From contig NZ_CP159342.1 of the NCBI RefSeq assembly GCF_040499845.1, positions 5,456,001 to 5,520,000 on the forward strand: a stretch of 64,000 nt of DNA. The letters are read 5' to 3'. Numbering within the stretch: the stretch's first letter is position 1; the number at the start of each line of letters is the position of its first letter. The notes under the pieces were generated by a model. That model saw nothing but the letters and a program-made list of their open reading frames with translations. It did no database searches and was not told the DNA's origin. Source of the stretch: Micromonospora sp. CCTCC AA 2012012. GTDB lineage: Bacteria; Actinomycetota; Actinomycetes; Mycobacteriales; Micromonosporaceae. Shown here piece after piece: positions 12,755 to 21,541 of the stretch. The translations under genes were made by a program, and so were the position numbers.

Positions 12755-12827
12755 GCGCCCGTAGCTCAATGGATAGAGCATCTGACTACGGATCAGAAGG
12801 TTAGGGGTTCGAGTCCCTTCGGGCGCA
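12755..12827 (+). tRNA. tRNA-Arg(ACG)
   Basis: Acceptor arms GCGCCCG and CGGGCGC with discriminator A. The anticodon stem TCTGA/TCAGA closes the loop CTACGGA, giving anticodon ACG. It is the substrate of TadA, which converts A34 to inosine; tadA lies at 54529 in this window. Confidence 0.96.
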
Positions 12828-16520: not shown

Positions 16521-17990
16521 ATGCGCCACCCCGTACTCCTGACCCTGCTCCTGCCGCCGCTGCTGGTGGCCGGCTGCACCTCGGCCCCGAAGACCCCGGC
16601 GACCGGCGACTCCGCCGCGTCGACCAGCCCCAGCCCCTCCGCGCCGGCGATCGACTACACGGCCTGGCAGGCCGGGAAGTCGACCCCGGTGGCCGACCCG
16701 GTCTATCCCGATCGCGGCACGGCCGCGCTGGACGTGCTGCACTACGGCCTGACCCTCGACTGGGCGCCGCCGACGAAGACCCTCACCGGCACCGCCACGC
16801 TCCAGATCCGGCCGACGAAGGACGCGCCGAACCTGGTCCTCGACTTCATGCCCTACCAGGTGGACGCGGTCATGCTCGACGGCACGACGGTCACCGGCGC
16901 GGTGGCGAAGGAGAAGCTGACCGTCGCCGCCCCGGTCACCGCCGACAAGCCGGTCACCCTGGTGGTGAAGTACCACGGCAGCCCGAAGACCACCCCGATG
17001 CCGTCGCACCGCAGCGACGTGGAACCGCTCGGGCTCACGGTCACCAGGGAGGGCGGCCTCTGGACGATGCAGGAGCCGTTCGGGGCGTTCACCTGGTACC
17101 CGGCGAACGACATGCCCTCCGACGAGGCGCTCTACGACATCGAGGTCACCGTCCCGGCGGGCTGGTCCGCGATCGCCGGCGGCACCCCCGGCCCGCAGTC
17201 CGGCAGCACCTTCACCTACCGCAGCACCGACCCGGTGGCGACGTACCTGACCACCCTCGCGGTCGGTAAGTACCAGAAGCTGACCGCGACCGGCCCGCAC
17301 GGCATCCCGCTCACCTACTGGTACCGCAAGGGCACCGACGACAAGCTGCTGCCGTACCTGAAGAAGTCGCCGCAGTACCTCGCGTGGCTGGAGAAGCGGT
17401 TCGGGCCGTACCCGTTCCCGTCCGGCGGGATCGTGCTGGTGGACTCCGAGTCGGGCATGGAGACCCAGCAGATGATCACCATGGGTCGCAAGATCGAGAA
17501 CAGCGCGGCCCGGCGCGAGCGCTGGGGCACCGACCTGCTGCACGAGTACGCCCACCAGTGGTTCGGGAACTCGGTCACGCCGACCACCTGGAACGACCTC
17601 TGGCTCAACGAGGGCTTCGCCACCTACGCCCAGGACCTCTGGACCCAGGAGACCCTGAAGCTCAGCGACGCCGGCCTGGACCGCTACCTGCGCCAGGCCG
17701 ACGCCAAGCTGCGGGCGAAGCTCGGCCCGCCCGGTAAGCCCAACCCGAAGAACTTCGCCGAGGGGAACGTCTATCTCTGCCCCGAGGCGATGCTGCGGGA
17801 GATCCACAACCTGATCGGCGACAAGGCGTTCTTCGCCCTCGCCACCGCCTGGGTGCAGGAGCGCAGGAACACCCAGCAGGACCGGGCCGCGTTCATCGCC
17901 TTCGTCAACAAGCAGACCGGCCGCGACCTCACCAAGCTGATCAACACCGGGCTGGACTCGAAGACCACCCCGAAGTCCATCGCCGCCTGA
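16521..17990 (+). CDS. M1-family zinc metallopeptidase, lipoprotein
   Basis: 489 residues. The lipoprotein signal ends LLVAGC with Cys19 as the lipidation site, followed by a Ser/Pro/Thr linker. Residues ~60-270 form the M1 N-terminal beta domain. The catalytic motif HEYAHQ (341-346) with E364 18 residues later (LWLNEGFATY) is complete. The exopeptidase GAMEN motif is not canonical: the equivalent stretch reads SGMETQQM. It is shorter than full aminopeptidase N because the C-terminal ARM domain is absent. It is expected to trim peptides at the outer face of the membrane. A strong hairpin follows at 18008. Confidence 0.9.
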   Translation: MRHPVLLTLLLPPLLVAGCTSAPKTPATGDSAASTSPSPSAPAIDYTAWQAGKSTPVADPVYPDRGTAALDVLHYGLTLDWAPPTKTLTGTATLQIRPTKDAPNLVLDFMPYQVDAVMLDGTTVTGAVAKEKLTVAAPVTADKPVTLVVKYHGSPKTTPMPSHRSDVEPLGLTVTREGGLWTMQEPFGAFTWYPANDMPSDEALYDIEVTVPAGWSAIAGGTPGPQSGSTFTYRSTDPVATYLTTLAVGKYQKLTATGPHGIPLTYWYRKGTDDKLLPYLKKSPQYLAWLEKRFGPYPFPSGGIVLVDSESGMETQQMITMGRKIENSAARRERWGTDLLHEYAHQWFGNSVTPTTWNDLWLNEGFATYAQDLWTQETLKLSDAGLDRYLRQADAKLRAKLGPPGKPNPKNFAEGNVYLCPEAMLREIHNLIGDKAFFALATAWVQERRNTQQDRAAFIAFVNKQTGRDLTKLINTGLDSKTTPKSIAA

Positions 17991-18483: not shown

Positions 18484-20202
18484 TCACAGCCGCTCCGGCG
18501 TCCGGATGCCCAGCAGGTGCAGGCCCTGCCGCAGCACCCGGGCGGTCAGGTCGGCCAGCACCAACCGGCTGTCCCGCACCGCCTCGTCGGCCCGCAGCAC
18601 CGGGCACCGCTCATAGAAGGCGCTGAACGCGGTGGCCAGCCGGTGCAGGTAGCCGGCCAGGTGGTGGAACTCCAGGCTCCGCTCCACCTCGGTCACCACC
18701 GCCCCGAAGCCGACCAGCTCGAACGCGAGGGCCCGCTCCGCCGGCTCCGCCAGACTGACCGCCGCCTCCGGCGGGACCGCCAGGCCGGCCCGCCGGAAGA
18801 TCGACCGGATCCGGGAGTACGCGTACTGGAGGTAGGGCGCGGTGTTCCCGTCCAGCGACAGCATCCGCTCCCAGTCCAGCACGTAGTCGCGGTGCCGGTC
18901 GTTGGAGAGGTCGGCGTACTTGACCGCGCCGATGCCGACCGCCCGGCCCACCTCGGCGGCTTCCGCCTCGGTCAGCTCCGGGTTCCGCTCCCGGGTCAGC
19001 GCGGTCGCCCGGGCCACCGCCTCCTCCAGCAGCCGGACGAGTTTCACCGACTCGCCGGTCCGGCTGCGCAGCATCCGCCCGTCGGGCCCGAGGATCGAGC
19101 CGAACGCCACGTGCTCGGCGCGGGCCGGCGGGACCAGCCAACCGGCCTGCGCGGCGGCGGCGTACACCATCTCGAAGTGCCGCCGCTGGGGCAGGCCGAC
19201 CACATAGAGCAGCCGGGTCGCGCCCAGCTCACCGGTACGGTGCCGGACGGCGGCCAGGTCGGTGGCCGGATAGCCGTACCCACCGTCGGACTTGCGGACG
19301 ATCAGCGGCAGCGGCTCGCCGTCCCGACCGACCGAGCCCTGCGGGAAGACACAGGCCGCGCCCTCGCTCTCCCGGAGCAGCCCGAGCCGGTCGAGGTCCG
19401 CCACGACCGGGCCGAGCAGGTCGTTGTAGCTGCTCTCGCCGCGGAAGTCCCGGTCGGTCAGCGTCACGTCCAGCAGGTCGTACACGGTGAGGAAGTAGCG
19501 TTCCGACTGCTCCACCAGCAGCCGCCACAGCCGCAGGGTCCGCTCGTCGCCGCCCTGCAACGCCACCACCCGCCGCCGGGACCGTTCCCGGAACGCCTCG
19601 TCGGCGTCGAACTTCGCCCGGGCCGCCTTGTAGAACGAGTCCAGGTCGCCCATCGAGAGTTCCTGCGTCGCCTCGGCCTCACCCAGGTCGACCAGGTGCT
19701 CGATGAGCATCCCGAACGGCGTCCCCCAGTCGCCCAGGTGGTTGGCCCGGACCACCCGGTGCCCCCGCCACTCCAGCAGCCGGGCCGCCGCGTCACCGAT
19801 CACCGTCGACCGCAGGTGCCCGACGTGCATCTCCTTCGCCACGTTCGGCGCCGAGTAGTCCACCACGACGGTCTCCGGCTCGGCGGTGACCGGCACGCCG
19901 AGCCGTGGGTCGACGGCCAGCGCCGACACCAGCCCGGCGAGGGTCCCGTCGGCGACGGTCAGGTTGATGAACCCCGGCCCGGAGACCTCCGCCGCGGCGC
20001 ACAGGTCGTCCAGCTCCGCGCGGGCCAGCACCTCCTCGGCGATCGCGCGCGGCGGCCGGCCCAGCCGCCGGGCCAGCGCCAGCGCCGCGTCCGACTGGAA
20101 GTCCGCGCGCTGCGAACGCCGGACGACCGGGTCGACCGGGCCGCCGGCCACCGCCGAGAACGCCGGCGCCAGCCGGTCGGTCAACAACTTCTCCAGATCC
20201 AT
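18484..20202 (-). CDS. argS: Arginyl-tRNA synthetase
   Basis: 572 residues, normal for class I ArgRS. The N-terminal Add-1 domain (1-100) ends GPGFINLTV. The HIGH signature reads HVGH (126-129) within APNVAKEMHVGHLRST. The DALR anticodon-binding domain covers the last ~130 residues and ends LGIRTPERL. As in most ArgRS, no canonical KMSKS Lys is seen. The ATG at 20202 has only a weak ribosome-binding site (GGGCG). Upstream lies a 280-base leader with an arginine-rich peptide and stacked hairpins (20222-20406), which suggests control by charged tRNA-Arg. trpS lies upstream in the same direction. Confidence 0.96.
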   Translation of the reverse strand: MDLEKLLTDRLAPAFSAVAGGPVDPVVRRSQRADFQSDAALALARRLGRPPRAIAEEVLARAELDDLCAAAEVSGPGFINLTVADGTLAGLVSALAVDPRLGVPVTAEPETVVVDYSAPNVAKEMHVGHLRSTVIGDAAARLLEWRGHRVVRANHLGDWGTPFGMLIEHLVDLGEAEATQELSMGDLDSFYKAARAKFDADEAFRERSRRRVVALQGGDERTLRLWRLLVEQSERYFLTVYDLLDVTLTDRDFRGESSYNDLLGPVVADLDRLGLLRESEGAACVFPQGSVGRDGEPLPLIVRKSDGGYGYPATDLAAVRHRTGELGATRLLYVVGLPQRRHFEMVYAAAAQAGWLVPPARAEHVAFGSILGPDGRMLRSRTGESVKLVRLLEEAVARATALTRERNPELTEAEAAEVGRAVGIGAVKYADLSNDRHRDYVLDWERMLSLDGNTAPYLQYAYSRIRSIFRRAGLAVPPEAAVSLAEPAERALAFELVGFGAVVTEVERSLEFHHLAGYLHRLATAFSAFYERCPVLRADEAVRDSRLVLADLTARVLRQGLHLLGIRTPERL

Positions 20203-20221
20203 GGGTACGCCCGTCTCGCTC

Positions 20222-20241
20222 GGATCCGCCGCTGGCGGATC
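20222..20241 (-). promoter_or_regulatory. Hairpin just before argS start
   Basis: The sequence GATCCGCC-AGC-GGCGGATC (minus strand) forms an 8-bp perfect stem ending about 20 bases before the argS ATG. It could act as terminator or mask the weak ribosome-binding site. It is the last of three hairpins in the leader. Confidence 0.55.
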
Positions 20242-20280
20242 TCCGGGAAGTGCGGGGCGGACCGAGGGACGGCCGAGGTC

Positions 20281-20304
20281 GACCGGCGGTTCGATCCGCC
20301 GGTC
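20281..20304 (-). promoter_or_regulatory. Second leader hairpin (possible attenuator)
   Basis: GACCGGCGG-ATCGAA-CCGCCGGTC forms a 9-bp perfect stem 15 bases after the leader peptide stop. Its arms share GACCG/CGGTC words with a third hairpin formed inside the Arg codons (GGCGGTC-CCGC-GACCGCC, about 20324-20345), so the two could compete, as in amino-acid attenuators. There is no T-tract. Confidence 0.55.
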
Positions 20305-20319
20305 GCAAGGAGGGTGAAC

Positions 20320-20406
20320 TCAGCGCAGGCGGTCGCGGGACCGCCGGCGTCGCGCACCGACCGACACGTCGCAGGACGTCGGCACGAGGGTGCGGAAGCT
20401 GGTCAC
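20320..20406 (-). CDS. Arginine-rich leader peptide upstream of argS
   Basis: A 28-codon frame starts at GTG 20406 and stops with TGA 20320-20322. It begins MTSFRTLVPT and ends ARRRRSRDRLR, so seven of the last ten codons encode Arg. A TACGCT hexamer (minus strand, 20418-20413) ends six bases before the GTG, the position expected for a leaderless transcript starting at or next to the first codon. Hairpins overlap and follow the Arg codons. The layout is that of a ribosome-mediated attenuator: stalling at Arg codons when charged tRNA-Arg is scarce would favour read-through into argS. Trp-codon leaders of this kind are known for a Streptomyces trpS; the argS version here is inferred. Confidence 0.62.
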   Translation of the reverse strand: MTSFRTLVPTSCDVSVGARRRRSRDRLR

Positions 20407-20482
20407 GTGGCCAGCGTAACCGGCCGGCCCGGGGGCGGCGCAAGGCCGTTCCCGAGCCGGCCCTTCCGGCGTACGCGAAAAC

Positions 20483-21541
20483 TCAGGCCGGCGTGCCGAC
20501 GGCCTTGCGGTAGCGCTCGGCCCTCCGCCGCACCTGGGTGTACGCGCTGGTCAGGCCCATCGCCCGACGCACCTCGACCAGGGTGCGGTGCACCTGCGCG
20601 CGGGTGCGTTCGGTGCCCGTCACGATCAGCTCGTCGACCAGCCCGCCGGCCGACGCGAACCGCTCCCGCCGCTCCCGGACCGGGTCGAGGAACCGGTTGA
20701 GCGCGCCCACCAACTCCTCCTTCACCTCCACGTCACCGACCCGCCCGGCCCGGTACCGCTGCTTGAGCTCCTCGACCTTCGCCCGGTCCGGGTTGAACAC
20801 GTCGTGGTACGCGAAGACCGGGTTGCCCTCGACGGTGCCGGGCACGTCGGCGCGGACCCGGTTCGGGTCGGTGTACATGCCCAGCACCTTGCGGCGGACC
20901 GTCGCCGGGTCGTCGGAGAGGGCGATGGCGTTCCCTCTGCTCTTGCTCATCTTCGCCGCCCCGTCGGTGCCGACCAGGGTGGGCGTCTCCGACATGATCA
21001 GCTCGGGGACCGGGAAGACCTCGCCGTAGAGGTGGTTGAAGCGCCGGGCGATCTCCCGGGTCACCTCGACGTGCGGCGCGTTGTCCTTCCCGACCGGCAC
21101 CACCTGCCCCTTCACGCAGAGGATGTCGGCGGCCTGGAGGACGGGATAGCCGAGCAGCCCGTACGGCATCTCCTCCTTGCCGGAGTCCCGGGCCATCTCC
21201 TTCAGCGACGGGACGCGCTCCAGCCGGGGCACGGTGACCAGGTTCTGCAGGAGGGTGTTCAGGTCGCCGACCTCGGGGATCGCCGACTGGAGATAGAAGG
21301 TCGCCCGGGCCGGGTCGACGCCGGCGGCGAGGATGTCGGTGACCATCTCGCGGGCGTTGGCGGAGACCTGCGCGATGTCCTCACGGGTGTTCTTCGTGGT
21401 GAGCATGTGCAGGTCGGCGATGATGAAGAAGCTCTCGTAGCGCTGGTGCAGCCGCACCCGGTTGGCGATGCTGCCGACGTAGTGCCCGAGGTGCAGCCGC
21501 CCGGTCGGGCGGTCGCCGGTGAGCATTCGTGCTGCGGACAT
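20483..21541 (-). CDS. trpS: Tryptophanyl-tRNA synthetase
   Basis: 352 residues, usual for bacterial TrpRS. It has the HIGH-type motif HLGH (17-20) in TGRLHLGHYVGS, and KMSKS (197-201) in DGAAKMSKSRGN. GKDNAPHVEVTREIARRFN (151-169) lines the Trp pocket. It charges tRNA-Trp in the cytoplasm. Actinomycetes often have two TrpRS enzymes, one of them induced; which type this is cannot be told without alignment. I found no Trp-codon run upstream, only a 55-codon frame with a single Trp. Same strand as argS, 280 bases before it. Confidence 0.95.
   Translation of the reverse strand: MSAARMLTGDRPTGRLHLGHYVGSIANRVRLHQRYESFFIIADLHMLTTKNTREDIAQVSANAREMVTDILAAGVDPARATFYLQSAIPEVGDLNTLLQNLVTVPRLERVPSLKEMARDSGKEEMPYGLLGYPVLQAADILCVKGQVVPVGKDNAPHVEVTREIARRFNHLYGEVFPVPELIMSETPTLVGTDGAAKMSKSRGNAIALSDDPATVRRKVLGMYTDPNRVRADVPGTVEGNPVFAYHDVFNPDRAKVEELKQRYRAGRVGDVEVKEELVGALNRFLDPVRERRERFASAGGLVDELIVTGTERTRAQVHRTLVEVRRAMGLTSAYTQVRRRAERYRKAVGTPA

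Follow-up and report, generated by a model that had tools for sequence, protein, structure and literature searches.

The second arginyl-tRNA synthetase gene of Micromonospora sp. CCTCC AA 2012012, argS2, is preceded by a short arginine-rich reading frame that recurs before argS2 in relatives. We consider it likely that this is a cis-acting Arg-codon leader of the leaderless type, dedicated to the auxiliary argS2 in Micromonosporaceae and sensing charged tRNA-Arg, and that it probably works through masking of the argS start. Judged from sequence, it is a real, conserved, and gene-specific Arg leader with an unusual rare-codon rule: comparison among genomes establishes a conserved leader, a conserved promoter spacing, a rule by which the Arg run opens with CGA, the match of a covariance model at argS2, and a set of conserved alternative pairings.

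The leader frame and its putative promoter

The window, the whole 64,000-nucleotide stretch of DNA that was analysed, contains the gene, the leader frame, and the putative promoter as follows.

18484..20202, minus strand: argS2, second arginyl-tRNA synthetase, 572 aa, with N-terminal, catalytic, and DALR domains
20320..20406, minus strand: leader ORF, 28 codons, from GTG at 20406 to TGA at 20322–20320, product VTSFRTLVPTSCDVSVGARRRRSRDRLR, C-terminal ARRRRSRDRLR (direct reading)
20413..20418, minus strand: -10 box TACGCT (TANNNT), ending 6 nt upstream of the leader GTG (direct reading and relatives)
20438..20443, minus strand: -35-like TTGCGC, with a 19 nt spacer to the -10 box (direct reading)

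Because TACGCT ends only 6 nt from the GTG, transcription would be expected to begin at or near the start codon, giving a leaderless message. A TTG at a roughly -35-like position is also found in several relatives; a scan with the sigma-70 consensus returned no promoter-like site. The initial annotation had placed a 28-codon, leaderless-type, Arg-rich frame ahead of argS. This frame is present as read and conserved in relatives, with its distance to argS revised: the leader stop lies 117 nt, and not 118, from the argS ATG (20202). The gap holds a single TA dinucleotide, within GTACCC, and therefore no further TANNNT box between the leader stop and argS, so that a search by sequence for a promoter downstream of 20320 found no such box. 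Upstream of the leader lies trpS (21541–20483, minus strand), at the end of which is a terminator-like stem (20500–20487); argS2 therefore probably needs its own promoter.

For a strict scan, we required a TANNNT box 6–7 nt before an ATG or GTG and a product of 10–50 aa containing either RRR or at least four Arg in six residues. Over both strands of the whole window, this rule was matched once, by the argS leader, out of six leaderless-type small frames. The 204-nt leader folds with -103.4 kcal/mol, compared with -89.88 ± 4.05 kcal/mol for dinucleotide shuffles (z = -3.34; none of the 200 shuffles folded as well). The uniqueness of the strict match and the better-than-shuffled fold together place the leader beyond chance, and the relatives confirm this; a chance frame in GC-rich DNA was ruled out by the shuffles and by the comparison sets without a leader. 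No Rfam family matched the leader at gathering scores, and none, T-box included, matched within 20000–20700 up to an E-value of 1.

The gene downstream of the leader

argS2 encodes a class I enzyme of full length, which scores 443.8 bits with TIGR00456 (cut-off 261.65) and also matches PF00750, PF05746, and PF03485. Its best solved structural relatives are 6ao8 and 4oby, the latter of which we take to be E. coli arginyl-tRNA synthetase. The genome encodes another argS, of 554 aa and approximately 30% identical to argS2, followed by a 461-aa frame that is presumably lysA, giving an argS–lysA pair. We infer that the 554-aa copy is the housekeeping argS and the window copy an auxiliary one. The initial annotation was right to place a leader before argS; it overlooked the second-copy status of the gene, as well as the CGA-first rule and element C described below. 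Among 150 family genomes, 148 match the window argS, many only at the level of the housekeeping-type copy. The window also contains a gene for tRNA-Arg(ACG) at 12755.

The genome has a further trpS-like gene, 32% identical to the trpS of the window, and both synthetase genes in the window, trpS and argS2, may be auxiliary copies. A 55-codon frame of leaderless type was read by eye before trpS (21798–21631, minus strand), with TACCGT 7 nt before its ATG and the ending LRAGGLRFRAGGRWRFAL. This frame is kept in four of nine relatives scanned (L161, L162, L166, and L195), with a single Trp codon near its end; in the other five the trpS motif was not found.

Distribution of the leader

Upstream of argS relatives, the strict leader occurs in 48 of 90 family places, the other 42 failing the strict scan; looser rules recover a leader in 57 of the 90. 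Dinucleotide shuffling of the same 90 places (40 rounds) gave a mean of 0.125 strict matches and a maximum of 1. These places are a subset of the family: among the matches listed, 13 more at 47–54% identity were left out (G075, G004, G108, G086, G046, G026, G050, G028, G024, G097, G070, G083, and G043). No strict leader was found before any of 68 argS relatives outside the family (L093–L160, part of the class-level matches) or before any of 20 housekeeping argS genes of the family. Conservation in homologous upstream regions, to which the initial annotation had pointed as a check, was seen for both the small frame and the stems.

Within Micromonospora, 13 of 16 drawn genomes have a full-length argS2, and the leader is present in all 13; of the remaining three, one (G065) has an 81%-identical piece of 58 residues and two (G003 and G107) have no such match. 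Named relatives carrying the leader comprise Micromonospora, Catellatospora, and Actinoplanes species. A further set of 80 loci was put through the strict scan, 24 of them being also scanned singly. It yielded 16 matches. Thirteen, spread over 12 loci, are Arg leaders ahead of argS2, two are unrelated frames on the opposite strand (L166 and L167), and one overlaps the argS start of L193, a Nitriliruptoraceae MAG that lies outside the family and does not belong to the 68. Beyond the family, the looser scan returned L146, with a 48-codon RRR frame that reaches the argS start; its box spacing of 5 fails the strict rule.

Genes of the argS2 type in Streptomyces, Frankia, and Nocardia (L171, L173, L174, and L200; 65–67% identity) have no Arg leader, and these genes look laterally moved. 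Ten family loci that lack a leader carry a TANNNT box a few bases upstream of argS itself (L034, L035, L042, L044, L052, L053, L057, L071, L073, and L076). In three genomes of one genus (L014, L015, and L016), no leader start was recognized, yet the covariance model R1, described below, matches before argS2; in L014, an Arg-containing tail and the B:B' hairpin could still be seen by eye. Decay or an altered leader is possible at these three loci.

An arginine run that opens with a rare codon

The Arg codons of the window leader are located as follows.

20341..20352, minus strand: Arg codon run CGA CGC CGG CGG, codons 19–22 of the leader, with the rare CGA first

The leader peptide is well conserved within Micromonospora and varies between genera, with the Arg run kept. 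An example from Micromonospora ends in LRRRRSRDRLR; others are MFCFSVRRRRPSGRR, VHSASSERRRMTSLRLS, and MFAYSAARSHSRAALRPARRRFTAC, and VVVIERRRIVAAR closes a longer frame. Codon usage was read from 66 leaders of 11 to 46 residues, picked by amino acid content and not by codon: 57 from the 90 family loci (looser scans) and nine from named loci. This set includes weaker cases (L033, L050, L054, L055, L058, L060, L077, L085, L086, and L092). Outside it stand L162, L170, and L176, taken as repeats of included loci; L163, a leader seen by eye with a shifted box and missed by the filter; and L168, from Salinispora, with an Arg pair only.

The first codon of the Arg run is CGA in 64 of the 66 leaders, many of which are related by descent and so do not represent 66 independent events; the rule spans leader types with unrelated peptides. 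By comparison, 30 argS2 genes together use CGA for 38 of their 1676 Arg codons (2.3%), and argS, trpS, and the frame 16521–17990 of the window use it for 1 of 122. CGA is normally read by tRNA-Arg(ICG) (PMC10454642).

Hairpins and alternative helices

The sequence from the Arg codons to the argS start contains the following elements.

20339..20345, minus strand: element A, GGCGGTC, 5' arm of the Arg-codon hairpin, pairs with R2
20328..20334, minus strand: element R2, GACCGCC, 3' arm of the Arg-codon hairpin, pairs with A
20296..20304, minus strand: element B, GACCGGCGG, 5' arm of the post-stop hairpin, pairs with B' or C
20281..20289, minus strand: element B', CCGCCGGTC, 3' arm of the post-stop hairpin, pairs with B
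20256..20265, minus strand: element C, TCGGTCCGCC, complementary to GGCGGATCGA (the B arm plus loop) and also to D
20234..20241, minus strand: element E, GATCCGCC, local partner of D in the third hairpin
20223..20230, minus strand: 3' arm of the third hairpin, GGCGGATC, pairs with GATCCGCC
20219..20230, minus strand: element D, GGCGGATCCGAG, ahead of the argS start, with E or C as partner

All three hairpins of the initial annotation (inside the Arg codons, past the stop, and before the ATG) were found at the places it gave. Two alignments were built, A2 with 26 Micromonospora-type and A1 with 16 Actinoplanes-type sequences, together covering 42 of the 66 leaders; elements B, B', C, and D follow the Arg codons in both. 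The helices were picked by eye on these same alignments, so that the pairing counts are not blind, and the shuffle-based counts are inflated by the kinship of the sequences. With those limits, A:R2 on A2 is paired in 74.2% of cells, with six double-change cells (0 of 500 shuffles), and E:D on A2 in 86.4%, with five (1 of 500). B:B' is paired in 97.4% of cells on A2 and 91.9% on A1; informative changes are few, and double changes show no clear excess on either alignment. B:C is paired at 94.9% on A1, where both partners have changed in three pairs (2 of 500 shuffles) and covariation is 0.202 against 0.144 ± 0.012 in shuffles, a value reached by 1 of 500; on A2 it is paired at 95.8%, with no double changes. 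C:D is paired in 82.0% of cells. B:B' and B:C exclude each other through the shared strand B, and C:D excludes both B:C and E:D.

In 40 of 42 sequences the state with B:B' has the higher predicted stability, mostly by several kcal/mol, and the leader stop and B lie 8–16 nt apart by the measure of our script (42 loci). A terminator scan and direct reading found no U-tract after B:B'; the sole terminator-like site in 20150–20600 is the one at the end of trpS.

A covariance model, R1, was built from the 26 A2 sequences and run on 150 family genomes with the stricter filters of Infernal. It matches 26 genomes, once each and always abutting the argS2 start; 20 of these had supplied training sequences and six had not (G021, G079, G090, G093, G120, and G121). 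R1 gave no match in the three Micromonospora genomes without a full argS2. The model is type-specific, G090 being the sole Actinoplanes-type locus that it found in the draw.

Catellatospora-like and other genera have leaders with a different downstream sequence. In the Catellatospora-like loci (L036, L037, L038, L039, L041, L043, L045, L046, L048, L049, and L051), the leaders end CGA CGA CGN ... GC(A)GC.CGC TGA, and a GGCAGC near the leader stop faces a downstream GCTGCC; a pyrimidine stretch beside this GCTGCC could face a purine stretch before argS. The sensor is thus common to the genera and the output part differs between them.

The region before argS is predicted to be less often unpaired in leader loci (mean 0.34, n = 67) than elsewhere. 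The corresponding means are 0.44 for 75 loci from outside the family (p = 3e-6) and 0.42 for 37 family loci lacking a leader (p = 0.004), kinship being ignored in both comparisons. The start-codon bases themselves are less paired in leader loci (0.51 unpaired, against 0.34 outside the family).

A proposed mechanism and its alternatives

From this arrangement we infer ribosome pausing, the sensing of charge, the direction of the response, and control of translation in place of transcription. A ribosome would initiate right at the 5' terminus of the message, read through the leader frame, and reach the Arg run with its opening rare CGA. A shortage of charged tRNA-Arg, above all of the ICG isoacceptor, which decodes CGA and CGC, would cause a pause at the run; R2 would be freed when the ribosome occupies the first CGA. 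The pause would shift the downstream helices, in which B may pair with B' or C, and C either with B or with D, which adjoins the argS start. By default, B:B' together with C:D would most likely keep the argS2 start region covered; a pause would favor B:C and E:D, opening the argS2 start, and the spare enzyme would be made when housekeeping charging fails.

Static folding did not reproduce a simple equilibrium switch through ribosome masking. With a ribosome masked at the first CGA or at the stop, predicted access to the argS start is about equal in 56 of 62 loci; masking at the first CGA raised access by more than 0.1 in three loci (L001, L005, and L043) and lowered it in three (L010, L166, and L167). 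The full folds of at least three short-leader loci (L058, L060, and L077) show the beginning of the leader paired to the sequence ahead of argS; in such a structure, a ribosome that pauses could unmask this sequence directly. A general pairing of the Arg codons with the region before argS, of the LEU type, was rejected as a rule (mean z = -0.53 over 66 leaders); the Arg-codon footprint scored below -1.5 against the argS start region in eight of the 66.

The initial annotation had read the layout as ribosome-mediated attenuation that senses charged tRNA-Arg. A dedicated, conserved Arg leader with alternative helices is indeed present; it does not form a clean trp-type terminator/antiterminator pair, because the U-tract is absent and modelled access is mostly unchanged. 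A classical transcriptional attenuator with an unusual terminator, and likewise Rho, remains a serious rival. Here the same sensor would act on transcription, with A:R2, R2:B, and B:B' as the 1:2, 2:3, and 3:4 helices of an attenuator, and B:B' would terminate unless a ribosome paused at CGA frees R2 for B. The order and complementarity of A, R2, B, and B' fit this scheme, as does the nearly constant distance from the stop to B, and leaders that lack a U-stretch have been published for S. lividans (PMC8079986). We hold it possible but doubtful, since no U-tract follows B:B' and element C is left unexplained; as a strong antiterminator, R2:B was rejected, its duplex scores against shuffles being weak in most loci.

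Control in the opposite direction, with argS2 expression falling when a ribosome stalls at the Arg codons, seems quite unlikely. It has a parallel in S. aureus rbfL, whose Arg-codon leader represses on Arg limitation (PMC13009471), and the masking model made three loci less open with a stall, though three others became more open. The paused ribosome of rbfL, however, blocks an adjacent ribosome-binding site, and the argS2 leader ends 117 nt away. Shutting off a synthetase while its product is short would also make little physiological sense. Binding of the RNA by a protein such as ArgRS2 itself, with the small frame incidental, would suit the strong conserved hairpins, and autoregulated synthetase mRNAs exist; we think it very improbable, as the frame, its start spacing, and the CGA-first run are all kept although the sequence downstream differs greatly. 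Hardly any credence attaches to a functional Arg-rich micropeptide, for although the sequence is well kept within Micromonospora, little beyond the Arg run is kept between genera and lengths range from 11 to 46 residues.

Returning to the translational B/C/D switch, which is unlike the trp type, we can speculatively extend it to the sensing of one isoacceptor. The leader would then report the charging, or the inosine modification, of tRNA-Arg(ICG) and turn on a second, distantly related ArgRS when the housekeeping ArgRS is blocked, implying a natural ArgRS inhibitor where these actinomycetes live. This extension is tentative, and we would not expect it to hold in full. Indolmycin provides the inhibitor parallel for the TrpRS pair of S. 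coelicolor; we know of no natural ArgRS inhibitor.

Relation to known leaders

Vecchione and Sello are said to have reported in 2010 that S. coelicolor trpRS1, which encodes an antibiotic-resistant enzyme, is under ribosome-mediated transcriptional attenuation. Like argS2, trpRS1 is an auxiliary synthetase gene; its leader uses Trp codons. Mycobacterial poly-cysteine leaderless short ORFs reportedly act as attenuators (described by Canestrari in 2020); they resemble the argS2 leader as leaderless codon-run leaders, but involve cysteine and other genes. The argS2 leaders have the -10 box 6–7 nt before the start codon that is typical of actinobacterial leaderless short ORFs and, as in trp-type systems, a short frame with a cognate codon run before the cognate gene.

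The analogy to trpS-type leaders of Streptomyces, drawn in the initial annotation, has published counterparts (PMC8079986, PMC1262725). In S. lividans TK24, leader peptides are described before leuS, trpS, and thrS (leaderless) and also before alaS, several of them lacking a clear U-stretch (PMC8079986). For Streptomyces leuS and trpS, upstream attenuators were predicted by Seliverstov et al. (2005), who also predicted a LEU element before leuA and reported that arginine operons showed no conserved RNA structures (PMC1262725). The argS2 leader shares with these Streptomyces synthetase leaders a short cognate-codon frame before a synthetase gene and hairpins past the stop (PMC8079986, PMC1262725). 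It differs from the Streptomyces synthetase leaders, as far as the available text of these sources describes them, in its argS target, the second-copy status of that target, the CGA-first run, and the conserved alternative helices of B, B', C, and D. The LEU element of Actinobacteria is described as having a Leu-codon leader, a pseudoknot, and an alternative hairpin, with no terminator named in the available text; its codon run pairs with the Shine-Dalgarno box, whereas such pairing is unsupported as a rule for the argS2 leader (PMC1262725).

Arginine is sensed through Arg codons of a leader frame in Salmonella speF orf34, where a structure covers the ribosome-binding site (PMC6386406), and in S. 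aureus rbfL (PMC13009471). Unlike the argS2 leader, these belong to unrelated genes and lineages and do not precede synthetase genes. For M. abscessus, the available part of one paper mentions ArgS only as erythromycin-induced (PMC4974804). A literature search that covered few subscription papers found no argS leader.

Significance

If the leader works as proposed, the CGA-first rule is a simple one that could be tested by single-codon changes, and the loci collected here provide a comparative data set for leaders without U-tract terminators. Should the spare ArgRS serve as a backup against inhibitors, the leader would be a ready reporter for natural products that target ArgRS. If the proposed reading is correct, arginine would join the amino acids whose cognate synthetase genes follow a leader in Actinobacteria, in this case tied to an auxiliary enzyme.
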